Source of the DNA: Tenggerimyces flavus
Lineage (GTDB): Bacteria > Actinomycetota > Actinomycetes > Propionibacteriales > Actinopolymorphaceae
Assembly: GCF_016907715.1 (NCBI RefSeq)
Contig: NZ_JAFBCM010000001.1
Location: 1,054,001 to 1,118,000, forward strand
Direction of reading: 5' to 3'
DNA: 64,000 bases
In this document: positions 2 to 64,000 of the stretch, piece by piece
Position numbering within the stretch: the stretch's first letter is position 1
How the letters are laid out: each line of letters begins with the position of its first letter
Notes under the pieces: model-generated
What the model saw: only the letters and a program-made list of their open reading frames with translations
Databases searched by the model: none
Told to the model about the DNA's origin: nothing
Translations under genes and position numbers: made by a program

Positions 2-862
2 GGCGACGACGTGCTGGCGCTGCAGCGGCGGCTGCTCGAGCTGGGCTTCAACCTCCGGCGCGTGGACGGCGTCTACGGTCCGGGCACGGAGCGGGCCGTA
101 CGCGAGTTCCAGCGCAGTGTGGGCGTCCCCGCGGACGGCTCGTGTGGTCCGGCGACGTTCAAGTCGCTGACCCGGCTCTCACCGAAGGTGACGGGTGGGC
201 GCGCGGACTCGCTGCGCGACGCCGAGCGCGTCCACGAGGCAGGGCCGCGGCTGCCCGGCAAGATCGTGGTGATCGACCCCGGTCACGGCGACGCCGACCG
301 CGGCTGCTGCTCGAACGGGCTGTGCGAAGCGGACGTCGCGTTCGACCTCGCCTCGCGGATCGAGGGCCGGCTGGCGGCGACCGGCGTACGCGTGTTCCTC
401 ACCCGCGGCCGCGACTCCTGCCCGGACGACGTGAGCCGCGCGCGCTTCGCCAACGAGACCGACGCCGACGTGGTCGTCTCGCTGCACGTGGACGAGCACC
501 CGAACGAGATCGCGAGCGGCGTGGCCACGTACTACTACGGCACCGCGGCCGACCCGCTGCGCTCCTCGTCGCTCGGCGAACGGTTCGCCGGCCTGGTGCA
601 GCGCGAGATCGTGGCACGAACGGACCTGGTCGACTGCCGCACGCACCCGAAGACGTGGGAACTGCTCCGGTACACGCGGATGCCCGCCGTCCGGGTCGAG
701 CTCGGCTACGTGTCCAACCACGGTGACGCGCTACGGATCGCCGACCCCGGCTTCCGCGACGTGGTGGCCGAGGCGATCGTGGTCGCGATCCAACGCGTCT
801 ACCTGCCGCCGGACATGGACGCCCCGACCGGCGTGCTGAAGCTCGGCGAGCTCATCCGCTAG
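2..862 (+). CDS. N-acetylmuramoyl-L-alanine amidase, CwlM-like (5' partial)
   Basis: The reading frame is open from the left edge, so the true start lies outside the window. The visible N-terminus is a peptidoglycan-binding domain (about the first 50 residues, repeat ending near PATFKSL), followed by an Amidase_3 domain that cleaves the MurNAc-L-Ala amide bond in peptidoglycan. The zinc and catalytic residues expected for Amidase_3 are visible: His in IDPGHG, Glu in GLCEADV, His in SLHVDEH and Glu in VELGYVSN. It may therefore be an active enzyme rather than only a regulator. Its position beyond parB matches cwlM of mycobacteria, whose product regulates peptidoglycan precursor synthesis; assignment to that orthologue is inference. 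It is convergent with the acetyltransferase gene that follows. Confidence 0.88.
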   Translation, partial: GDDVLALQRRLLELGFNLRRVDGVYGPGTERAVREFQRSVGVPADGSCGPATFKSLTRLSPKVTGGRADSLRDAERVHEAGPRLPGKIVVIDPGHGDADRGCCSNGLCEADVAFDLASRIEGRLAATGVRVFLTRGRDSCPDDVSRARFANETDADVVVSLHVDEHPNEIASGVATYYYGTAADPLRSSSLGERFAGLVQREIVARTDLVDCRTHPKTWELLRYTRMPAVRVELGYVSNHGDALRIADPGFRDVVAEAIVVAIQRVYLPPDMDAPTGVLKLGELIR

Positions 863-886
863 AAGCGCACACCAGTTCGATCCAGG

Positions 887-1510
887 TCAGACCGGACGGA
901 ACGCACCCTCAGGCGTCATCGAGCCGAGCAGTTTCTCCAACGCCGCTTCGACATCTTCCTTCCACGAGATCGCATTGCGAAGCTCGAGGCGGAGCCGCGG
1001 GAAGCGGTGGTGCGGGCGTACGGTCTTGAAGCCGACGGCCAGGAAGTAGTCCGCCGGCACCATGCAGGACGGCCGGTCCCAGCGAGCGTCGCCGAACGCC
1101 TCCAGCGCCTTGATGTTCCGCTTCACCAGGTCCTTCGCGACGCTCTGCACGAGCATCCGGCCGAGCCCGCTGCCGGCGAAGTCGGGCACGATGTGCGCGG
1201 TCATCAGCAGCGCCGCGTCACTACTCACGGGCGAGGTCGGGAACGCGACCGAGCGCGGAACGTACATCGGCGGCGCGTACAGAACGAAGCCCGCCGGAGA
1301 CTGGTCGACGTAGCAGACCTTCCCGACCGACCCCCACTCGAGTAGGGCCGCGGAGACCCACGCCTCCTTCTCGAGCCCGGGATCGCCGGCGTCCTCGGCG
1401 CGTTCACCGGCGACCGGGTCGAGCTCCCAGAACACACATGACCTACACCGCTTCGGCAGATCGTCGAGATTGTCGAGGGTGATGTTCGCGAGCCGCCGGG
1501 TCGTACTCAT
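887..1510 (-). CDS. GNAT-family N-acetyltransferase
   Basis: A 207-residue protein beginning MSTTRRLANIT. It has the GNAT fold, with the acetyl-CoA-binding motif A region around GSGLGRMLVQSVAKDL (residues about 125-140), where the R/Q-x-x-G-x-G/A pattern is recognisable. The N-terminal third contains a CRSC pair, typical of a conserved actinobacterial acetyltransferase found near parB. The substrate is unknown. The start overlaps the stop of the upstream small membrane-protein gene by 4 bp (ATGA), suggesting co-translation. Confidence 0.8.
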   Translation of the reverse strand: MSTTRRLANITLDNLDDLPKRCRSCVFWELDPVAGERAEDAGDPGLEKEAWVSAALLEWGSVGKVCYVDQSPAGFVLYAPPMYVPRSVAFPTSPVSSDAALLMTAHIVPDFAGSGLGRMLVQSVAKDLVKRNIKALEAFGDARWDRPSCMVPADYFLAVGFKTVRPHHRFPRLRLELRNAISWKEDVEAALEKLLGSMTPEGAFRPV

Positions 1511-1710
1511 TCCGTCCCAGTCACCCGCTGTTGGTGGGCGACGGTGTGGTCCTCCGACGGCCTCGGCGCGACGTAACCGCCCGCGTACGCGCGCGGATCG
1601 GCTCGGACCGAATGCGGGATCGAGGCGGCCTGACGCCGCAACAAGCCAGCCAGGAAACCGAGAAGCAGGCCGGCGAGAACTCCCAGCACGACCAACCGGA
1701 TGTAGCGCAT
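1507..1710 (-). CDS. Small single-pass membrane protein
   Basis: A 67-residue protein with a hydrophobic N-terminal helix (residues about 3-25, rich in Leu, Val and Gly) followed by a short polar tail. The ATG at 1710 is preferred over an upstream GTG at 1728 because a GGAAGGG ribosome-binding site lies 6-7 bases before it. Its stop overlaps the start of the acetyltransferase gene by 4 bp, so the two form an operon. No family is recognised. The length, single membrane segment and codon use look real rather than shadow coding. Confidence 0.55.
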   Translation of the reverse strand: MRYIRLVVLGVLAGLLLGFLAGLLRRQAASIPHSVRADPRAYAGGYVAPRPSEDHTVAHQQRVTGTE

Positions 1711-1790
1711 GACCGACCCTTCCGACACCTCACCCTGCCGCTGACTCCCGCGCGAGGCGTCTCATAGGGCATCGTAGTAGGCACACCCCT

Positions 1791-3137
1791 GTGACGAGAG
1801 AGGCAGTGTGCCCGATCATGGAGAGCACCCCGGAGCAGCGTCCCGTCCCGCGCGAGACTCGGTTCGACGCCGACGTCGCACGGTACGCCGCACGAGCTCG
1901 CGGGATGGTGGCCTCCGAGATCCGCGCCCTGTTCTCCGTCGCGAACCGGCCCGAGGTCGTCTCGCTCGCCGGCGGATCGCCGAACATCTCCGGCCTCCCC
2001 CTCGACGTCGTGGGCTCGCTGCTGAACGACCTCGTCCTGGACCGCGGCGTGGCCGCGATGAACTACGCGGTCGCCCAGGGCTATCCCCCGCTGCGTGAGC
2101 AGATCCTCGAGGTGATGCGGCCGGTGGGGATCGAGGCGAACGCGGACGACGTCGTCGTCACCGTCGGCAGCCAGCAGGCGCTCGACCTGGTGACGCGGAT
2201 CTTCTGCGATCCCGGCGACGTGGTGATCGCCGAAGCCCCGAGCTACGTCGGCGCGCTCGGTGTGTTCGCCGCGTACCAGTGCGACGTCGTGCACGTCGCG
2301 ATGGACGACGACGGCCTCATCCCCGACCACCTCGACACGGCGATCGCGTCGGTCATCGCGAGCGGCCGGCGGGTCAAGTTCCTCTACACGATCCCCAACT
2401 TCCAGAACCCGACCGGCGTCTCGCTCCCGCAGGAGCGGCGGCACGCGATCCTCGAGATCTGCCGCAAGCACGACGTGCTGGTGGTCGAGGACGACCCGTA
2501 CGGTCTGCTCGGGTTCGACGGGGAACCGAACAGGGCGCTCCGCGCCGACGACCCGGCGCGGGTGGTCTACCTCGGCTCGTTCTCGAAGACGTTCGCCCCG
2601 GGCTTCCGGGTCGGCTGGGCGCTCGCCCCGCACGCGATCCGCGACAAGCTCGTGCTCGCCCAGGAGTCGGCGACGCTGTGTCCGCCGACGTTCAGCCAGC
2701 ACGTGGTGTCGTCGTACCTGGAACGCCATGACTGGCGCGGGCAGATCAAGTCGTTCCGCGAGATGTACCGGGAGCGGCGCGACGCGATGCTGGACGCGCT
2801 CGACGACTTCATGCCGGCGAGCATGACGTGGACGAAGCCCGGGGGCGGCTTCTTCGTCTGGGCAACGCTGCCTGAAGGTCTGGACGCCAAGGCCATGTCG
2901 CCGCGGGCGATCACGGAGAGAGTGGCGTACGTGCCGGGGACTGCGTTCTATGCCGATGGGTACGGAAGCCAGTGTCTGCGGCTGTCGTACTGTTTCCCGC
3001 CACCGGAGCGCATCCGGGAAGGTGTACGACGGCTCGCCGCGGTGGTGGAGCAGGAGCTGGAGCTACGCGAGACGTTCGGGCCGATGCATCTCGGTCCGGG
3101 CCGAGGCGTCGAGTCGCCCGGTCCCGGCCTGACCTAG
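1791..3137 (+). CDS. PLP-dependent aminotransferase, class I/II (2-aminoadipate transaminase-like)
   Basis: Fold-type I aminotransferase of 448 residues if the GTG at 1791 is used; an ATG at 1818 (MESTPEQ) is an equally plausible start. The PLP lysine is Lys266 in GSFSKTFAPGFRVGW. The upstream IPNFQNPTG segment (residues 201-209) and EDDPYG (233-238) are the cofactor-contact motifs of the LysN/2-aminoadipate aminotransferase subgroup, also shared with MocR-type C-terminal domains. There is no N-terminal GntR domain, so it is a stand-alone enzyme. The amino-acid substrate cannot be fixed from sequence. It is divergent from the acetyltransferase pair and upstream of the Ddl-type gene; similar aminotransferases neighbour parB in other actinobacteria. 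Confidence 0.85.
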   Translation: MTREAVCPIMESTPEQRPVPRETRFDADVARYAARARGMVASEIRALFSVANRPEVVSLAGGSPNISGLPLDVVGSLLNDLVLDRGVAAMNYAVAQGYPPLREQILEVMRPVGIEANADDVVVTVGSQQALDLVTRIFCDPGDVVIAEAPSYVGALGVFAAYQCDVVHVAMDDDGLIPDHLDTAIASVIASGRRVKFLYTIPNFQNPTGVSLPQERRHAILEICRKHDVLVVEDDPYGLLGFDGEPNRALRADDPARVVYLGSFSKTFAPGFRVGWALAPHAIRDKLVLAQESATLCPPTFSQHVVSSYLERHDWRGQIKSFREMYRERRDAMLDALDDFMPASMTWTKPGGGFFVWATLPEGLDAKAMSPRAITERVAYVPGTAFYADGYGSQCLRLSYCFPPPERIREGVRRLAAVVEQELELRETFGPMHLGPGRGVESPGPGLT

Positions 3138-3154
3138 TCGCGTCGGTTCACGGA

Positions 3155-3239
3155 GCAGTCCGGCTTGTCGAAGCAGCGGAGCCGATTCACCGGCGAACAT
3201 TCAGGCGGCGGCGAAGTGAAACTGGGCAAGCCGGACTGC
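3155..3239 (+). repeat. 13-bp perfect inverted repeat with 59-bp loop upstream of the Ddl-type gene
   Basis: GCAGTCCGGCTTG at 3155-3167 is exactly complementary to CAAGCCGGACTGC at 3227-3239. Wobble and one more pair extend the stem slightly inward. It ends 36 bases before the ATG of the ligase gene. It could be a structured mRNA leader or a binding site for two protein dimers; the sequence does not decide between these. Confidence 0.6.
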
Positions 3240-3275
3240 GACCATAGGGCTAGCGAGTCAGTGAAAGGGAAGTCC

Positions 3276-4226
3276 ATGAGTGACCTCGGTCGTGTCCTCG
3301 TTCTCGCCGGCGGCCTCTCGCACGAGCGGGAGGTGTCGCTGCGGTCCGGGCGACGGGTGAGCGACGCGCTGCGTTCGGTCGGCCTCGAGGTCGACGAGCG
3401 CGACGTCGACGCGGCGCTGATCCCGTCGCTGCGGAACGATCCCCCGTCCGCGGTGTTCCCGTTGCTGCACGGGTCGATCGGTGAGGACGGCGCCGTACGC
3501 GAGGTGCTCGATCTGCTGGGGGTGCCGTACGTCGGTTCTGGTCCGGCGGCGTGCCGGGTCGCGTTCGACAAGCCGGTCGCGAAGACGACGGTGTTGGCGG
3601 CGGGCATCCGTACGCCGGACTCGGTGGCGCTCCCCCACGAGACGTTCCGCGAGCTCGGCGCCCAGGCCGTGTTGGAGCGGATCCTCGACCGGCTCGGGTT
3701 GCCGTTGGTCGTGAAGCCGACCCGCGGTGGGTCTGCTCTCGGGTGCACGGTGGTGCGCGAGCCGGAGGAGCTACCGGCCGCGATGGTGGGCTGCTTCGCG
3801 TACGGCGAGGTCGCTCTGCTCGAACGGTTCGTCGCCGGCACCGAGGTGACGGTCACGGTGGTCGACACCGGGGACGGGCCGCGCGCACTCCCGGCGGTGG
3901 AGATCGTGCCGGACGGCGGCGTGTACGACTACGCGGCTCGCTACAACGCGGGTGCGACGGAGTTCGTCACGCCGGCCCGGTTGGACGACGCGGTGGCGAC
4001 CCAGTGTGCGGAGATCGCGCTCGCCGCGCACCGCGCCCTCGGGCTGCGCGACCTGTCCCGCTCCGACCTGATCGTGGACGCGAACGGTGCGGTCTGGTTC
4101 CTCGAGGTGAACGTCGCGCCCGGCATGACCGAGACCTCGCTGGTGCCCCTCGCGGTGGAGTCGGCCGGCCTCGACCTCGGCGTCATCTGCCGCGACCTGC
4201 TCCAGTTGGCGGCCAACCGCACCTGA
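3276..4226 (+). CDS. ddl: D-alanine--D-alanine ligase family protein (ATP-grasp)
   Basis: A 316-residue ATP-grasp enzyme. Ddl signatures are present in order: GGLSHEREVSL near residues 12-22 (family GGxSxEHEVSL), HGSIGEDGAVREVLDLLGVPY, and a C-terminal EVNVAPGMTETSL containing the Mg/ADP-binding Glu and Asn. The family joins two D-alanines for peptidoglycan precursors using ATP. ATG 3276 is chosen because AAAGGGA lies 6-9 bases upstream and the Ddl homology starts there. A second ddl may exist elsewhere, so which is the housekeeping copy is unknown. It is preceded by a long inverted repeat and followed by parS sites and a terminator. Confidence 0.82.
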   Translation: MSDLGRVLVLAGGLSHEREVSLRSGRRVSDALRSVGLEVDERDVDAALIPSLRNDPPSAVFPLLHGSIGEDGAVREVLDLLGVPYVGSGPAACRVAFDKPVAKTTVLAAGIRTPDSVALPHETFRELGAQAVLERILDRLGLPLVVKPTRGGSALGCTVVREPEELPAAMVGCFAYGEVALLERFVAGTEVTVTVVDTGDGPRALPAVEIVPDGGVYDYAARYNAGATEFVTPARLDDAVATQCAEIALAAHRALGLRDLSRSDLIVDANGAVWFLEVNVAPGMTETSLVPLAVESAGLDLGVICRDLLQLAANRT

Positions 4227-4242
4227 CGTTTCACGTGAAACA
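4227..4242. other. parS: parS centromere site 1
   Basis: CGTTTCACGTGAAACA matches the ParB-binding palindrome TGTTTCACGTGAAACA at 15 of 16 positions. It begins just after the Ddl-type stop codon. ParB loads here and spreads to form the segregation complex with ParA, as established for chromosomal parABS systems. Confidence 0.95.
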
Positions 4243-4261
4243 TTGGGCACTCGGTGGCCGT

Positions 4262-4277
4262 TGTTTCACGTGAAACC
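4262..4277. other. parS: parS centromere site 2
   Basis: TGTTTCACGTGAAACC, 15 of 16 matches to the parS palindrome, 35 bp from site 1 (start to start). Confidence 0.95.
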
Positions 4278-4296
4278 AGCACGTTCGCACCAGCAA

Positions 4297-4312
4297 TGTT
4301 TCACGTGAAACA
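4297..4312. other. parS: parS centromere site 3 (perfect)
   Basis: A perfect 16-bp parS palindrome, again 35 bp from the previous site. The three sites are therefore regularly spaced in the gap between the convergent ddl-type and parB genes. Confidence 0.96.
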
Positions 4313-4347
4313 ACGAAGGGCCCGTCCAACCGGACGGGCCCTTCGTT
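4312..4347. terminator. Bidirectional intrinsic terminator between ddl and parB
   Basis: A perfect 16-bp stem: AACGAAGGGCCCGTCC at 4312-4327 pairs with GGACGGGCCCTTCGTT at 4332-4347 around a 4-base loop. It sits between convergent genes and its left edge abuts parS site 3. The T-tract is short, as is usual in high-GC actinobacteria. Confidence 0.85.
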
Positions 4348-4359
4348 CTTGATTGAGTA

Positions 4360-5289
4360 CTAGGAAGCGATCGACCGAGAGGTCTTCGGATCCATCAGCG
4401 TCACGATGCGCTCGAGGTCGTCGAGCGATGCGAACTCGACGGTGATCTTGCCCTTGGACTTGCCGAGGTCGACCTTCACCCGCGTCTCGAACCGGTCGGC
4501 CAGCCGGCCCTCCAGGTCGGCGAGCTTCGGCGCCACCGGCTTCGGTCCCTTGGGTGGCTTCGCCTTCCGCTGCGGTCCGCCGCCCATGCCGAGCGTCACG
4601 ATCTCCTCGACCGTCCGCACCGACAGGCCCTCGGCGACGATCCGGTGTGCCAGCCGCTCCTGCTCGTCCGGGTCGGTCAACCCGAGCAACGCGCGGGCAT
4701 GTCCCGCCGACAGCACGCCGGCGGCGACGCGGCGCTGCACGGTCGCCGGCAGCTTCATCAGCCGGAGCGTGTTCGTGATCTGCGGACGCGAGCGACCGAT
4801 CCGCTGCGCGAGCTCGTCGTGGGTGCAGCCGAAGTCGTCGAGCAACTGCCCGTACGCGGCCGCCTCTTCGAGCGGGTTCAGCTGAGCGCGGTGCAGGTTC
4901 TCCAGCAGCGCGTCGCGGAGCATCGCGTCGTCAGTCGTCTCCCGCACGATCGCCGGGATGACCGTGAGGCCGGCCAGCTGGGAGGCACGCCAGCGGCGCT
5001 CGCCCATGACCAGCTCGTACCGTTCGTCGTCCAGCTTGCGAACGACGATCGGCTGCAGCAGCCCGACTTCCTTCAGCGAGTGGACGAGCTCGCCCATCGC
5101 GTCTTCGTCGAAGGTCTGGCGTGGCTGTCGGGCGTTCGGGGTGATCGAGTCGACGGGCACTTCGGCGAAGTACGCCCCGTCGATGGTGGCGGGCTGAGCG
5201 TCGACCCCCGCGTCGACGCTGGCGGCCTTCTCCACGGCCGGCGGGATGAGGGCGCCGAGACCACGGCCAAGCCCACGACGAACGGTCAC
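4360..5289 (-). CDS. parB: Chromosome partitioning protein ParB
   Basis: A 309-residue CTPase clamp that binds parS. Visible parts are a basic N-terminal ParA-stimulating segment ([16 protein letters not shown]), the CTP-binding boxes GERRWRAS (residues 96-103) and [10 protein letters not shown] (130-139), a helix-turn-helix around residues 156-178, a basic Pro/Lys linker, and a C-terminal dimerisation domain. GTG 5289 is chosen because AAGGAG lies 5 bases upstream and the ParB N-terminal motif begins there, although the frame is open further. It follows parA by 17 bp, so the two are an operon. Four parS sites lie within 1.2 kb of either end of the gene. Confidence 0.95.
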
Positions 5290-57655: not shown

Positions 57656-58840
57656 CTAGTGGCCGACGGCGCGGCCGGTTTGTTCGGCCCAGGCGGTCAC
57701 GTCTTCGCGGCGGATGGCCACGGCCAGCAGCTCCGGGAAGAGGTCCGGCGTGCAGGCGAACGCCGGAGCTCCCAACCCAGACAGGGCGGCGGCGAGCTCG
57801 TGGTCGTACGAAGGCGTCCCCGAGTCCGACAGCGCCAGCAGCACGACGACCGTCACGCCCGACGCGACCAGGTCCCGCACGCGGCGCACGAGCTCGGAAG
57901 CCGAGCCGCCCTCATAGAGATCCGAGATCAGCACCAGCACAGTGTCCGCCGGGCGGCGCACCAGCGACTGCGCGTACGACACCGCCCGGTTGATGTCCGT
58001 CCCGCCACCCAGCTGCGTCGAGAACAACAGGTCCACCGGATCCGTCAACAACTCTGTCAGATCCGCCACCTCGGTGTCGAAGACCACCAGCCGCGTGTCC
58101 ACCGACCGCAACGAGGCCAGCGTCGCGCCGAAGATCGCCGAGTACACCATCGACTCGCCCATCGAGCCCGACTGGTCCACCAGCAAGATCACGTCCCGCA
58201 ACGCCGACGCACGGCTGCGCCGATGGTGCCCGAGCAGCTTCTCCACCACGACGGTCTTCTCCGACGGCTGGTAGTGCCGCAGGTTCGCGCGGATCGTCGT
58301 CGACCAGTCCACGTCCGCCAGCAACGGCCGCGACGTACGGCGGGAACGGTCCAACGCCCCGTTCACCGACGCCAACAGCTGGTCCGTCAACCGCCGCTGG
58401 ACATCCTCGACCACCTTCCGCACCACCGCACGCGCCGTCCCCCGCGTACGTTCCGGAATCGCCGACGACAACGAGATCAACGTCGTCGCCAGCTGGATGT
58501 CCGGCTGCGCCAGAGCCAACAGCTCCGGCTCGAACAACAGCTTCGTCAGCCCCAGCCGCTCAACGGCGTCGCGCTGCATCACCTGCACGACGGACGAAGG
58601 AAAGTACGTGCGGATGTCACCCAACCATCGATGCAGAGCCGGCGAGCTACTGCCAAGCCCACCTTGACGCTCACCACGGCGCCCGCTCGACTCGCCGTCC
58701 TCCGAGCCGTCCGCACCCGGCCCGTACAGAACGGTCAGTGCCTCGTCCCGACGCTGATCGTCCTTCTCCAGTTGGCTCAACTCGTCAGCCGAAGGCCCCA
58801 GCAACATCCGCCACCGCCGCCGGCGCTCGTCGTCGCTCAT
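57656..58840 (-). CDS. vWA (MIDAS) domain protein of the MoxR/DUF5682 operon
   Basis: A 394-residue protein. An N-terminal helical region of about 210 residues precedes a von Willebrand A domain with a full MIDAS: Asp222-x-Ser224-x-Ser226 (LLVDQSGSM), Thr281 (GGTDI) and Asp307 (ISDLYEGG). vWA proteins of this kind bind metal and work with MoxR ATPases as adaptors. ATG 58840 overlaps the stop of the DUF5682 gene (ATGA). It is the last gene of a five-gene operon. Confidence 0.88.
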   Translation of the reverse strand: MSDDERRRRWRMLLGPSADELSQLEKDDQRRDEALTVLYGPGADGSEDGESSGRRGERQGGLGSSSPALHRWLGDIRTYFPSSVVQVMQRDAVERLGLTKLLFEPELLALAQPDIQLATTLISLSSAIPERTRGTARAVVRKVVEDVQRRLTDQLLASVNGALDRSRRTSRPLLADVDWSTTIRANLRHYQPSEKTVVVEKLLGHHRRSRASALRDVILLVDQSGSMGESMVYSAIFGATLASLRSVDTRLVVFDTEVADLTELLTDPVDLLFSTQLGGGTDINRAVSYAQSLVRRPADTVLVLISDLYEGGSASELVRRVRDLVASGVTVVVLLALSDSGTPSYDHELAAALSGLGAPAFACTPDLFPELLAVAIRREDVTAWAEQTGRAVGH

Positions 58841-61044
58841 CGCGCAGCCTCCGCCAGCAAGCCCTCGACGTACGACACCAACCGCGCAGCCCGCGTCGGA
58901 TCCCACTCGTCCCCAGCAGCCACCACCGGCCCCGCCTCGCCCGACACCCGCGACGCCAACGTCCGCCGCTCGGCAGTGCTGAACTCCGAAACAGCCCTAC
59001 GCAGCAAGGGCAAAGCGTCCTCGAACGACGAGTCCGACAACCCCGCCAGCCACGAGTCGACCAACGCAAGCAGCCGCGGATCCGCTCCCAGCATCGTCGC
59101 CGACCCGCGCAAGAAGCCCGCCACGAAAGCCGTCGACCCCGACGAGGCAGTCACCGCCCGATGCAGCCGCACCGCCACCGCATCGGCAGACAAGGCAGAA
59201 GACTCCCACAGCAGTCGTGTTGAACGCCCGGCCGGCAACCCGTGCGCGTCGTCGGTCTCGACCAGCTTCACCAAGGACGCCTCCCACAGCTCGGCATGAG
59301 AGTCGTCCGCCATCCGCCGCACCGCCTGCTGTGCGCCGTCGATCGCCCGCACCGCCTGCTCCGCCGTGCGGTCGTCGATCCCCCGGCACGCCAACGGCAA
59401 CCCCACCGCACCCCGCGACAACAGCCCATGCAGCGCCGTCCGCAACAGCTCCGGATCCGTCCCGCGCACCGACCCGTACCGAGCCGTGTCCGACAGCTCC
59501 GGCAACGCACCCAGCAGATCCAACGCGTCCGTCGCCGCGGCCGCACACCGGTCCAGCGCCTCGCGCGCGGACGTCACCACGTCCGGCAGCTCACATCCCA
59601 CCGCCGAAGCGAGCAGCGAGGCGGCCTCGGAGACCCGTTCGGCGTCGACCGTACGAGACAGCAACACGCGTTCGGCAGCCGCCGAGACCGTCGTCCCGTG
59701 CCGAGCCGCCGCCGCGACGGCAACTGCCAGCGACGGGTCCCAGCGCAGCACCCACCGTTCGGCGAACGTCCCCAACCCACGCGCGGGTTCGAGCTCGCCC
59801 CACGCCACGTCCAGCACCAACAGCCGCCGGAACAACCGGGACCGCTCCCGCCCCACGTCCTTCCGCAGATCCAGCGCGACGAGCTTCTCCTCCGGCGACA
59901 CCGGCAACCGGAGCCGCTTCTGCAGCCGTTCGAGGTCCCGCGCCAGCGGTGACCGGGGAACGTCGTCGCCCACCGCGCCCAGCTGCTCGCCGATCACCAG
60001 CCGGTCGCGCACGAGCCGCAGCGGTACGGAGTCGCCGCCGCACAACACCGCCAGCGTCGCGTCCGACACCTCCGACAAACCCGGCGACGGCCGCCCGCGC
60101 AACGCGGCCAACGCGTCGGCCAGCCGTACGGCCTCCACCGCGCTCGCCGTCGAGGCCGGCAAGCCTTCGGACCGCAGCACCTGGCAGGTCCGCGCGAACC
60201 ATCGCGGCACCACGTCACCGTGGCCCGCACGCGAGAACAGGTGCGAGTACCAACCCGGCGAGTCGACGCCCGCGCCGTACCCCGACGTCGCCGCCAGCCG
60301 CCCGTAGCTCCACGGCACCCAGGACCCGGAGACCTTGCGTTTCTTCAACCCACGCAGCAAAGCGGCGTCATGCGTCGCCGGCGGCAACGTCGCCAAGGCG
60401 GGCGCGTGCCATGCCCCACAGACGAAGACGATCGGGCCGGAGAACTCCTTCAGACCCTTCCGCAGGAGCTGCCGCATCGCGGCCTCACGGACCAGCGTCT
60501 CCTCGTCGATCTCGTCCGCGTACTCCTCCCGCAGCGCCCCCATCGCCTCGCCGACTGCCGCGGCGAGCGTCAGCGGGTCGGCGACCGCGGAGTGCTCGAC
60601 GACGTCCTCCCACCACCGTTCCGGATCGTCGAACCCGGCCGCCTCGGCCAGCAGACCCAGCGGGTCGAGGTGCACCCGCTTCCGTCGCGGCCGGAGGATC
60701 CGGTCGACCGGGTCGATGAACGCCGACGCCGCCATGTCCGCGAACCGCGCCGGCACCCCCGCGGCAGCGGCCCACGACAACGCCTGCCACTCCGGCGAGA
60801 ACCCCGCGAACGGCCAGAACGCCGACTTCGACGGATCCGCGTCGTCGTGCAGCAACAGCGCGACCGGCGGCGTGAGGTCGGGAACGTGCGGCACCAACGG
60901 ATCCGCGTCCGGCGGCCCCTCGATCAGCACCAGCTCCGGCCGGACCGCCTCCAGCGCCGCACGCACCATCCGCGCCGAACCCGGCCCGTGGTGCCGGATC
61001 CCCAGCACCGTGACCCGCTCCGGCAGAGCAGTGCTGCGCGCCAC
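58837..61044 (-). CDS. DUF5682 protein with Tiki/TraB-like motifs
   Basis: A 735-residue protein. The N-terminal 220 residues carry GIRH (15-18) after a beta strand, IEGP with Glu42, a helix with Arg186 and Met190 (LVREAAM), and VCGAWH (Gly210-His213). This order (GX2H, E, R, GX2H) is that of the Tiki/TraB/EreA/ChaN superfamily, some of which are metal-dependent hydrolases. The remaining 500 residues are largely helical, with no motif recognised. It ends inside the vWA gene and starts 9 bp after the MoxR gene. The biochemical role is unknown. Confidence 0.82.
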   Translation of the reverse strand: MARSTALPERVTVLGIRHHGPGSARMVRAALEAVRPELVLIEGPPDADPLVPHVPDLTPPVALLLHDDADPSKSAFWPFAGFSPEWQALSWAAAAGVPARFADMAASAFIDPVDRILRPRRKRVHLDPLGLLAEAAGFDDPERWWEDVVEHSAVADPLTLAAAVGEAMGALREEYADEIDEETLVREAAMRQLLRKGLKEFSGPIVFVCGAWHAPALATLPPATHDAALLRGLKKRKVSGSWVPWSYGRLAATSGYGAGVDSPGWYSHLFSRAGHGDVVPRWFARTCQVLRSEGLPASTASAVEAVRLADALAALRGRPSPGLSEVSDATLAVLCGGDSVPLRLVRDRLVIGEQLGAVGDDVPRSPLARDLERLQKRLRLPVSPEEKLVALDLRKDVGRERSRLFRRLLVLDVAWGELEPARGLGTFAERWVLRWDPSLAVAVAAAARHGTTVSAAAERVLLSRTVDAERVSEAASLLASAVGCELPDVVTSAREALDRCAAAATDALDLLGALPELSDTARYGSVRGTDPELLRTALHGLLSRGAVGLPLACRGIDDRTAEQAVRAIDGAQQAVRRMADDSHAELWEASLVKLVETDDAHGLPAGRSTRLLWESSALSADAVAVRLHRAVTASSGSTAFVAGFLRGSATMLGADPRLLALVDSWLAGLSDSSFEDALPLLRRAVSEFSTAERRTLASRVSGEAGPVVAAGDEWDPTRAARLVSYVEGLLAEAAR

Positions 61045-61053
61045 GAGAGAACC

Positions 61054-62172
61054 TCAGACCCCGCCGACCGTGAACCCAGCCACGTCGAGCTCCTGGCAGG
61101 CGCGGTAGAGGTCCCGCCACTCCGAACGTTCCTTCACCACGGTCTCGAGGTACTCCTGCCACGCCGCCGTGTCCGACACCCGGTCCTTGACGATCGCGCC
61201 GAGCAGCCCGGCCGCCACCTCGTCCGCGCCGAGCTGACCGTCGCCGAAGTGCGCCGCGAGCGCCATCCCGGAGGTGATCACCGAGATCGCCTCGGCCGTG
61301 GACAGCGAGCCGCTCGGCTTCTTCAGCTGCGTACGGCCGTCCGACGTCGTCCCGTTCCGCAGCTCGCGGAACACGCGGACGACCCGCCGCACCTCGTCCA
61401 GCGCCGGCGGTTCCGCGGGCAGCTGCAGCGCTTGACCGATCTGCGCCGACCGCGAAGCGACGATCTCCACCTCGGCGTCCTCGGTCGCGGGCGGCGGCAG
61501 CACGACGGTGTTGAACCGGCGCGCCAGTGCGGACGACATCTGGTTGACGCCGCGGTCGCGGTCGTTCGCCGTCCCGATGATCGTGAAGCCGGGGATCGCG
61601 CGGATCTGCAGGTTGAGCTCGGGTACGGGAAGTGCCTTCTCCGACAGCACGGTGATCAACGAGTCCTGCACCTCGGCCGGCATCCGGGTCAGCTCCTCGA
61701 TGCGGGCCACGGCGCCGGTCTGCATCGCGCGCATGATCGGCGAGGCCACCATCGCCGCCTCGCTTGGCCCCTCGGCGATCAGCCGCGCGTAGTTCCAGCC
61801 GTACCGGATCGAGTCCTCCGACGTCCCCGCCGTGCCCTGGACGACGAGCGTCGAGTCGCCGCTGACGGCCGCCGCGATGTGCTCGGACAGCCAGGACTTC
61901 GCGGTGCCGGGTACGCCGACGAGCAGCAGCGCGCGGTCGGTCGCGAGCGTGCCGACCGCGACCTCGACGATGCGCCGGTCGCCGATGTACTTCGGCGTGA
62001 TCACGGTGCCGTCGTCGAGGGTGTCGCCGAGGACATAACGGACAACCGCCTGCGGCGAGAGGCGCCAGTTCGGCGGCCGCGGCAGCACGTCGTTCTCGGC
62101 GAGGGCGGCCAGCTCCTTCGCGTGCTCCACCTCGGCCGGCGGCCGCATCACTCCGGCGGTGTCGCTACTCAT
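61054..62172 (-). CDS. MoxR-type AAA ATPase
   Basis: A 372-residue AAA+ protein. Walker A is GVPGTAKS (86-93). The Walker B position reads ARIEEL (156-161), with Glu-Glu instead of the usual Asp-Glu. Sensor 1 Asn203 is in IIGTANDRDRG and the arginine finger is ALARRF (217-220). MoxR ATPases act with vWA partners as chaperones or remodelers. ATG 62172 lies inside the end of the DUF5691 gene; an in-frame ATG at 62181 is possible. Confidence 0.9.
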   Translation of the reverse strand: MSSDTAGVMRPPAEVEHAKELAALAENDVLPRPPNWRLSPQAVVRYVLGDTLDDGTVITPKYIGDRRIVEVAVGTLATDRALLLVGVPGTAKSWLSEHIAAAVSGDSTLVVQGTAGTSEDSIRYGWNYARLIAEGPSEAAMVASPIMRAMQTGAVARIEELTRMPAEVQDSLITVLSEKALPVPELNLQIRAIPGFTIIGTANDRDRGVNQMSSALARRFNTVVLPPPATEDAEVEIVASRSAQIGQALQLPAEPPALDEVRRVVRVFRELRNGTTSDGRTQLKKPSGSLSTAEAISVITSGMALAAHFGDGQLGADEVAAGLLGAIVKDRVSDTAAWQEYLETVVKERSEWRDLYRACQELDVAGFTVGGV

Positions 62173-63520
62173 AGGCCCCATTCTGCGTGACGGCCACCGA
62201 CCCGTAGAGGGTGCGGCGGAGGTTGAGGACGTACTCGTGGCGGCCGTGCTCGGGCCAGCGCTCGGCGAGGTGCGGCCAGTACTGGGTCAGCAGGTCCACC
62301 GAGCCGCGCCGGATCAGCACGTCCGGCGGCCGGTTGGCCCGCCAGCGGGCGTCGGGGCTCTCGTAGAGGCGGCGGAGAACGGCGAGTGTCGTGTCCTCGG
62401 ACCACGGGCCGGTGACGAGCTCGGCGGCGGACTCGAGCGCGCCGCGGTCGGGGTTGGCGGCGAGCGCAGCGAGAACGTGGGCGCCGGCGGCGGCCGGCAG
62501 GGAGCGCAGGGCGGCGAGGACGTCGCTGTCGAGCAGGACGCCGACCAGCTCTGTCGCCCAGCGGGCCGGTTCGGCGGACTTGGGGAGGCCGAGCAGCATG
62601 CCCGACGCCAACGGCACCGACCAGCGGCTGGCTCCCACCAGCTGGACCACCTCGTCGTCGGACCGGTCCAGCAGCTTGGCCCAGGCCTCGGGCGCGAGGC
62701 AGGATGCGGCGCCGCGCAGGCGGGTGGCGATGCTGCCGACCGCCGTACGTTGGCCGCCAAGGTCGCGCGCCTCGTCGTTCGGTGTCTCGCGCCGCGCGTA
62801 CGGGCCGCCCGGCAGCACCTCGAGCGCGCCGTCCATGACGGTCAGGCCCTCGCGCAGCCGGAGCCTTGTCCGCCGTTCCAACGCCGTCCCCGACAGCTGC
62901 CGCAACAGCCGGAACGCCTCCCCGCGCACCTCGACCGCGCGGTCGTCCAACGCGTCCTCGAGAAACGACTCGTCCTCCTTGGTCACCGGCTCCAGCGCCG
63001 TCAACAGCGCCTTGCGGTCCGCCGAACGTCGTTCCTCCGCGAACTGTTCGGCGAGCCGGTCCCGGTCCGGGATCAGCGCGAGCTCCGCCTGCACCGCCGC
63101 CCACGACCACACCGGCCGTACCTTTGCCAGCCACACGCCACGCTCGCCGACGACCGCGCCGAGCACGTCGCGGAACGCCGGCCGCGCGTTCCCCACCGAC
63201 AGCAGGTCCGGCAGGTGCCGGGGCGCGGCCACCAGCCCGGCGGTGCGGACGACCGTGCACCACTCGTACAGCAGCCCCGCGTCCTCGGTCGCCAGCATCT
63301 CGTCCAGTAGCCGGGCCAGGTCAGCCGACACCACAGCGCCCGGGGCGGGTCCGGGCTCGATCGGTGTGGCATCCGACCGCGGCGCCAGCTGCGCACCCCG
63401 TCTTGCGACGCCCATGGCGGCCAGTTTGTCCAGCAGGGCATGCGATTCGACCCCAGCGCGGTCGGAGCCGAGTACGAGCTGCTGCACGGTGTCAACCCAC
63501 TCTTGACGCGACGCGTTCAT
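62165..63520 (-). CDS. DUF5691 family protein
   Basis: A 451-residue protein starting MNASRQEWVDTVQQLVLGSDRAG. It is predicted mostly alpha-helical with HEAT-like spacing (repeated DRALL/DDRAVEVRGEAFRLLRQLSG, then DEVVQLVGASRWSVPLASGMLLGLP), suggesting a scaffold. The family is recognised from its place beside SWIM and MoxR genes; its function is unknown. It overlaps both neighbours by 4-8 bp. Confidence 0.8.
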   Translation of the reverse strand: MNASRQEWVDTVQQLVLGSDRAGVESHALLDKLAAMGVARRGAQLAPRSDATPIEPGPAPGAVVSADLARLLDEMLATEDAGLLYEWCTVVRTAGLVAAPRHLPDLLSVGNARPAFRDVLGAVVGERGVWLAKVRPVWSWAAVQAELALIPDRDRLAEQFAEERRSADRKALLTALEPVTKEDESFLEDALDDRAVEVRGEAFRLLRQLSGTALERRTRLRLREGLTVMDGALEVLPGGPYARRETPNDEARDLGGQRTAVGSIATRLRGAASCLAPEAWAKLLDRSDDEVVQLVGASRWSVPLASGMLLGLPKSAEPARWATELVGVLLDSDVLAALRSLPAAAGAHVLAALAANPDRGALESAAELVTGPWSEDTTLAVLRRLYESPDARWRANRPPDVLIRRGSVDLLTQYWPHLAERWPEHGRHEYVLNLRRTLYGSVAVTQNGAYE

Positions 63521-64000
63521 CCGACCAGCTCCGGCGTTCCGTCGAACGGCGTCGCAACGCCGAGCCGCAGCACGTTCCCGTCCCACAGGCAGATGGCGCC
63601 GAACGGCTTGCCGCCGCTGACCGCCAGCGCGCGGTCGAGACCGTCGTCGTCGCGTACCGGCAACCCGTGTCCCGCTTCGTCGAGCAGCACCCACGATGCG
63701 CCGGCGGCCGCGGGCCGGACGCCCTCGCAACCCAGCGGAAACTGCCGCTGCCACGGGTCGCTGGACAGCAGCGGCTCGAGCCCGGCCAACGCCTCGGCCC
63801 ACGTCGACGGCAACGGGATCGGCGCCGGCGGGCCGGTGACGTCGACGAGGCCGGGTAGCACCCGGCGCGGCGAGCCCGCCGGGTAGGGGTGCATCGTGCC
63901 GCGCAGTTCCACGCCCAGCGGCAGAAGCGGAGTCGCCGGCGCGTTCACCGCGTACGCGACCGCGATCACCCACTCCCGCCGCTCGCGCGCCCAGGCCCAC
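63517..64000 (-). CDS. C-terminal part of a probable SWIM zinc-finger family protein (partial)
   Basis: The frame is open to the right edge, with 160 residues visible, beginning WAWARERREWVIAVAYAVNAP and ending FDGTPELVG. No SWIM CxCxnCxH motif is in view; it would lie upstream of the window. The assignment rests on the known SWIM-DUF5691-MoxR-DUF5682-vWA gene order and on the general look of the C-terminus. The stop overlaps the DUF5691 start (ATGA). Confidence 0.5.
   Translation of the reverse strand, partial: WAWARERREWVIAVAYAVNAPATPLLPLGVELRGTMHPYPAGSPRRVLPGLVDVTGPPAPIPLPSTWAEALAGLEPLLSSDPWQRQFPLGCEGVRPAAAGASWVLLDEAGHGLPVRDDDGLDRALAVSGGKPFGAICLWDGNVLRLGVATPFDGTPELVG

Follow-up and report, generated by a model that had tools for sequence, protein, structure and literature searches.

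A conserved five-gene operon of Tenggerimyces flavus with a core related to E. coli yehL-yehM-yehP and a predicted TIKI-type hydrolase domain

Here, we analysed a stretch of 64,000 nucleotides from the actinobacterium Tenggerimyces flavus (NCBI RefSeq assembly GCF_016907715.1, contig NZ_JAFBCM010000001.1, positions 1,054,001 to 1,118,000 of the forward strand), hereafter the window, taken from a genome of 8.5 Mb that forms a single contig. The right-hand end of the window carries five genes on the minus strand, read leftward, which encode a SWIM zinc-finger protein, a DUF5691 protein, a MoxR AAA+ ATPase, a DUF5682 protein and a von Willebrand factor A (vWA) protein. This operon is real, conserved and uncharacterised. 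Judged by sequence comparison, its last three genes are homologues of E. coli yehL-yehM-yehP, while the N-terminal domain of the DUF5682 protein is predicted to adopt a TIKI/ChaN/erythromycin-esterase fold. We propose that the MoxR-vWA pair is a motor that gates a TIKI-type hydrolase targeted by SWIM-DUF5691, a reading whose chances of being right or wrong we regard as evenly balanced. The features are as follows (window numbering).

63517-64812, minus strand: SWIM zinc-finger gene, whole, 431 amino acids; the 3' part 63517..64000 lies within the window
62165..63520, minus strand: DUF5691 gene, 451 amino acids; Pfam PF18944, E 1.6e-49
61054..62172, minus strand: MoxR AAA+ ATPase gene, YehL type, 372 amino acids; Pfam AAA_5 PF07728
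58837..61044, minus strand: DUF5682 gene (YehM homologue), 735 amino acids, GTG start; Pfam PF18934, E 5e-221
60259..61044, minus strand: DUF5682 N-terminal domain, residues 1-262; predicted TIKI/ChaN/Ere-like fold
DUF5682 residues H18, (H19), E42, E85, D103, E150, R172, R186 and H213: candidate active-site residues, by conservation in 118 loci
57656..58840, minus strand: vWA gene (CoxE-type, YehP homologue), 394 amino acids; VWA_CoxE PF05762, E 2e-52

The SWIM gene starts 812 nt past the window edge, a position read from the genome, and the MoxR gene has an alternative ATG at 62181. With the SWIM protein matching PF04434, all five families lie above the Pfam cut-off. The genes are joined by a 4-nt ATGA overlap (SWIM/DUF5691), an 8-nt overlap (DUF5691/MoxR), a 9-nt gap (MoxR/DUF5682) and a further 4-nt ATGA overlap (DUF5682/vWA). 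Gene coordinates and Pfam families thus confirm exactly what a first-pass annotation of this DNA had described, five leftward genes with these junctions; the fixed stoichiometry it deduced does not follow from coupling alone. We take the unit to be five genes because the open reading frame upstream of SWIM, named aldo/keto reductase-like from its sequence only, is divergent. Among relatives, the DUF5691/MoxR junction is within 30 nt in 61/69 and the MoxR/DUF5682 junction in 100/116, lengths that are biased towards short distances as the start codon taken was the one nearest the upstream stop.

A scan of species genomes gave 80 named loci with flanks, to which other phyla and divergent copies were added to reach 118 loci. 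The neighbour test was restricted to the 102 loci in which the DUF5682 match is flanked by 2.5 kb or more on each side. MoxR proved to be the direct upstream neighbour of DUF5682, on the same strand, in 102/102. A vWA gene is present in the same locus in all 102 and directly downstream in 87; the 15 non-adjacent cases are 12 Lentzea loci and three loci of class C (see below). Within 246 sampled genomes of Actinomycetota, the phylum of the window, 19 hold DUF5682 and 17 hold DUF5691 over the cut-off, and these 17 without exception also hold DUF5682, 2.0-5.7 kb away (Fisher p 2.4e-24, n=246, an overstatement because related genomes are not independent). Both DUF5682 genomes that have no DUF5691 hold class B systems. 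The Planctomycetota sample contains DUF5682 over the cut-off in 18/149 genomes. The co-occurrence of the five-gene set is not chance, and the earlier suspicion of a conserved set whose genes are not mostly found apart is borne out. The nearest named DUF5682 relatives, with 62-69% identity, come from Saccharothrix, Kutzneria and Lentzea. A Kibdelosporangium-like operon with 66% identity to the window and unchanged layout was found in a record titled Rhodococcus rhodnii NRRL B-16535 (L041, JOAA01000035.1), a strain that may be mislabelled.

The first-pass annotation had missed the homology of the core to E. coli yehL-yehM-yehP, although YehL has already given its name to a subfamily of MoxR proteins (PMC3893208). 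The operon of E. coli K-12 has the order yehI (DUF4132), yehK, yehL, yehM, yehP, yehQ. Profiles of class A, the class of the window, match YehL, YehM and YehP over nearly their full length with 472, 665 and 495 bits, respectively, the YehM and YehP matches having helped to build those profiles (L003 was in the iteration set). Direct BLAST comparison of the window proteins gave 43% identity over 371 columns to YehL (E 1e-82), 27% identity of DUF5682 to YehM (E 1e-38) and 39% identity of vWA to YehP (E 4e-83). We assign the window system to class A, as a relative of yehLMP, and its MoxR protein to the YehL type. Both operons have MoxR, DUF5682 and vWA in the same order as well as a SWIM protein. 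In contrast to the window, the yeh operon is headed by the DUF4132 protein YehI instead of SWIM-DUF5691, its SWIM protein YehQ is a different one and comes last, and its MoxR and DUF5682 proteins fall outside the class A clade.

We distinguish two main classes, class A with a SWIM-DUF5691 head and class B with a WGR-DUF4132 head and YehQ as in E. coli. The second copies of Streptomyces and several Planctomycetota follow the layout of E. coli: a YehQ-like SWIM protein lies downstream and, where it was detected, WGR-DUF4132 lies upstream. Class B makes up a single clade of the MoxR tree (Shimodaira-Hasegawa-like approximate likelihood ratio test, SH-aLRT, 97) and stands apart from class A in the DUF5682 tree; the class label A/B/C requires only two changes in each, both being quick trees with long branches. 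Two or three classes coexist in some genomes and are thus not simple replacements of each other. This five-gene machine is ancient and spread over many bacterial phyla, and a sister version occurs in nearly every E. coli. Homology between DUF5691 and DUF4132, between the SWIM protein and YehQ, or between DUF5682 and Ere is not claimed because the profile comparisons were unconvincing. Class C, with the arrangement vWA-MoxR-divergent DUF5682, was seen in three actinobacterial genomes (L122 7183-11336, L123 8594-12761, L124 8210-12301), which also hold class A or B, and its DUF5682 is very divergent. In the second Streptomyces copies L119 and L120, an open reading frame of ~1,900 residues directly precedes the class B MoxR gene; it has hardly any match in Pfam and may encode a WGR-DUF4132 protein that has diverged.

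The five-gene order is repeated in Pseudomonadota, Deinococcota, Bacteroidota and Planctomycetota; Methylosinus, Deinococcus, Hymenobacter and Rhizobium have it on plasmid or second-replicon records. Within class A, it is broken only in Streptomyces, where SWIM-DUF5691 is divergent from MoxR-DUF5682-vWA, and in Lentzea (L045, L048-L052, L055-L057, L059-L061), where vWA is found on the opposite strand a few kilobases upstream of SWIM, in the first 2 kb of these loci. In ten loci, from Micromonosporaceae, a planctomycete, Hymenobacter and two others, a single open frame covers both SWIM and DUF5691; in two of the ten (L131, L132) this frame is unusually long and may instead span neighbouring genes. 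Both domains were detected by Pfam in the two fused proteins tested. A further six loci show a fusion of DUF5682 with vWA. These fusions suggest that SWIM-DUF5691 and DUF5682-vWA are two sub-assemblies. An extra small gene, annotated as hypothetical, lies between MoxR and DUF5682 in a Deinococcus locus (L114, 7747-7983) and a Hymenobacter locus (L115, 7362-7973).

What might DUF5682 do? AlphaFold2 models of the protein reached a mean predicted local distance difference test score of 86.5 for the whole chain and 85.7 for residues 1-262. The N-terminal domain was modelled alone because a fold search with the whole protein returned only helical-repeat matches besides a complex IV row. When this domain was compared to 381 chains using VIA-align 2, all top 15 rows belonged to the TIKI-type set (Z 10.3-7.1, root-mean-square deviation 3.5-5.9, 133-193 residues aligned), namely a Tetrahymena complex IV subunit, HopBA1, ChaN (Z 8.9), the C-terminal region of PMT, RRSP, EreC and Bcr135, and the first unrelated row was Ffh with Z 6.1. 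PMT, HopBA1, Bcr135 and ChaN have been listed together as relatives within the TIKI superfamily (PMC6254334). The joint rise of this whole scattered superfamily is the strongest evidence for the predicted fold. Sequence searches of the PDB found no DUF5682 relatives, and a search for the TraB family in relatives found nothing for comparison.

Eleven residues of DUF5682 are identical in 118/118 loci and across all classes (H18, E42, E85, D103, W145, E150, R172, R186, M190, G210 and H213), H19 is kept in 112/118, and W86, R195 and W212 vary. The essential residues of RRSP are two His, two Glu and one Arg (PMC6254334), to which H18/H19, E42, R186 and H213 would correspond in order and spacing when mapped by motif spacing alone. 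DUF5682 would share with the TIKI/TraB/ChaN/Ere superfamily (RRSP, HopBA1, ChaN, EreC, Bcr135) both the predicted fold and the motif order His, Glu, Arg-x-x-x-Met, His, while differing from it in its long inserts, some ~480 further, mostly helical residues and its place in a cytosolic operon with an AAA+ motor. Transferred to YehM, the predicted active site comprises H11, H12, E35, R175 and H202. The effector role that the first-pass annotation had assigned to DUF5682 is plausible because of the predicted hydrolase-type fold and the invariant candidate catalytic residues. Several points weigh against a hydrolase. VIA-align Z values of 7-10 are individually middling, Foldseek alone was weak (best E 0.015), and a profile-profile comparison of DUF5682 with the Ere family was not significant (Prob 1.2). 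By motif spacing alone, the position of the first RRSP Glu is apparently occupied by an Arg, R17. ChaN binds haem and PMT is devoid of the catalytic set, so that the fold alone is no proof of hydrolysis. Literature searches on YehL, YehM, YehP, YehQ, DUF5682 and DUF5691 revealed no functional study.

The conserved motifs suggest that MoxR and vWA are both probably active. In 116/116 MoxR sequences, the Walker A motif GxPGTAK (G86, P88, G89, T90, K92), sensor 1 N203 and the arginines R218 and R219 are invariant. Residues D222, S224, S226 and D307 of the vWA metal ion-dependent adhesion site (MIDAS) are present in 112/112 aligned rows and T281 in 106/113. The YehL-type Walker B motif (MoxR residues 157-160) reads RxEE, not DE, with E159-E160 invariant in 116/116. 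Like RavA-ViaA, NorQ-NorD, CbbQ-CbbO and CoxD-CoxE, the window pair combines a MoxR AAA+ ATPase with an operon-linked, MIDAS-bearing vWA protein; unlike them, it belongs to another MoxR subfamily (BLAST of the window MoxR against RavA gave no match) and has a TIKI-like DUF5682 and a SWIM-DUF5691 arm as constant partners. The metal-binding residues C61, C63, C70 and H72 of the SWIM CxC...CxH motif are each at least 97% conserved in 90 homologues. DUF5691 is a probable HEAT-like helical scaffold. To the helical scaffold that the first-pass annotation had supposed, sub-threshold HEAT matches in fused relatives lend weak support.

Based on these observations, we suggest the following mechanism for the class A 'YehLMP' system. 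The YehL-type MoxR protein and its vWA adaptor would form an ATP-driven remodelling pair, with vWA physically coupled to DUF5682. The N-terminal domain of DUF5682 would be a hydrolase, either peptidase or esterase, whose candidate active-site residues are H18/H19, E42, R186 and H213, and the motor is probably contacted by the protein's long helical C-terminal part. SWIM and DUF5691 would serve as a targeting arm, delivering a protein client or one bound to nucleic acid to the motor, and ATP hydrolysis by MoxR would then open the hydrolase or feed the client in. More tentatively, DUF5682 may be the first TIKI-type hydrolase under MoxR-vWA control, in which case the system would be a protease or esterase that depends on ATP, is targeted by SWIM-DUF5691 or WGR-DUF4132 as exchangeable arms and is conserved from E. 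coli to Streptomyces and Planctomycetota. A role in intracellular quality control or stress response is more likely than one in phage defence.

But could the motor instead serve the maturation of another enzyme? A cofactor or metalloenzyme maturation chaperone, in which MoxR-vWA remodels a client enzyme in the manner of NorQ-NorD, CbbQ-CbbO or CoxD-CoxE and DUF5682 binds haem or metal like ChaN without any hydrolysis, appears unlikely to us. Known MoxR-vWA pairs mature dedicated complexes (PMC3893208), the vWA protein of the window is of the CoxE type, ChaN is one of the top fold matches, and MolR, a WGR protein whose gene neighbours the class B operon, originally took its name from the use of molybdate, as cited in PMC8533742. 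However, the operon has no client enzyme gene as a constant neighbour, a hydrolase motif matches the invariant His/Glu/Arg/His pattern equally well, and the molybdate genes of D. radiodurans did not change together with the DUF4132/WGR genes (PMC8533742).

Less probable still is a nucleic-acid damage or repair machine, in which SWIM (class A) or WGR (class B) would sense nucleic acid and the motor-hydrolase would remove bound protein. This idea draws on the WGR-DUF4132 pair that takes the place of SWIM-DUF5691 in class B, on the rise of D. radiodurans DRA0166 (DUF4132) and DR2173 (WGR) upon depletion of the damage-response repressor DdrO, and on the description of MolR as a member of the LexA regulon (PMC8533742). 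The damage-response link in this literature is, however, limited to WGR/DUF4132 genes (PMC8533742), and our operator scans for class A give it no support. SOS boxes with up to one mismatch were found upstream of 1/73 class A operons versus 2.9 expected, hence without enrichment, and the 30 kb E. coli region contains no perfect LexA box. SWIM domains bind protein too. Scans upstream of the operon for HspR-associated inverted repeats (HAIR) and the controlling inverted repeat of chaperone expression (CIRCE) were negative.

The genomic setting bears on a role in defence. MoxR-vWA ternary systems with peptidases have been predicted to be conflict systems, namely those with VMAP, iSTAND, FtsH or beta-propeller components (PMC7159879). 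They resemble the window system in combining MoxR and vWA with constant further genes and in a P-loop variant, GXXXTAKS, which GVPGTAKS of the window MoxR fits; the match of the bpMoxR profile to it is weak (E 7e-5, below the cut-off). The distribution within Actinomycetota (19/246) is patchy. In contrast to those systems, neither a swapping effector set nor a defence-island setting is apparent, as DUF5682 with the same invariant residues occurs in 118/118 loci, and no VMAP, iSTAND, FtsH or beta-propeller third component was detected over the Pfam cut-off in the five proteins. PADLOC gave no component match pointing to defence. In the flanks from ten genomes (113 proteins), its matches were mainly seven PcrA/UvrD helicases, which are housekeeping proteins (Pfam PcrA_UvrD_tudor), and with a few scattered matches among 125 control proteins drawn from arbitrary positions of these genomes, there was no enrichment over random. 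In Streptomyces, the operon keeps a constant chromosomal place next to pcrA and succinyl-CoA ligase genes, with neighbours 83-95% identical between species, and the MoxR and DUF5682 trees track host families. yehM is present in 5284/5426 complete E. coli genomes (97%) and chromosomal at 5289/5291 places, and a search of viral contigs gave no relative of the system. With its constant composition, near-core chromosomal E. coli counterpart and almost no phage-borne copies, the system is thus very unlikely to be a MoxR-vWA ternary system acting against phages or in conflict, the possibility that the first-pass annotation had considered.

If the proposal of a motor-gated hydrolase is true, MoxR-vWA remodelling machines would gain a new catalytic output and two domains of unknown function a likely enzyme class. 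The core is found in ~97% of complete E. coli genomes, yet no recorded function was found in the literature searched. Our analysis supplies a concrete, testable active-site prediction, names two fused partner pairs and distinguishes two classes with different targeting arms that sometimes share one genome.

The operon is dispensable, since the K-12-derived strain DGF-298 is viable without the yeh region (PMC10652928) and some Shigella sonnei lineages are without yehL and yehM (PMC12795559). In one E. coli strain, an IS5 element splits yehM (H22, NZ_CP137737.1 1867916-1871259). The sole match in a phage collection was an unverified faecal contig filed as 'Bacteriophage sp.' (L118, MT835988.1), which carries MoxR-DUF5682-vWA at 286-4867. 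Both trees place its MoxR and DUF5682 with Fusobacterium, so the contig is probably misfiled bacterial DNA.

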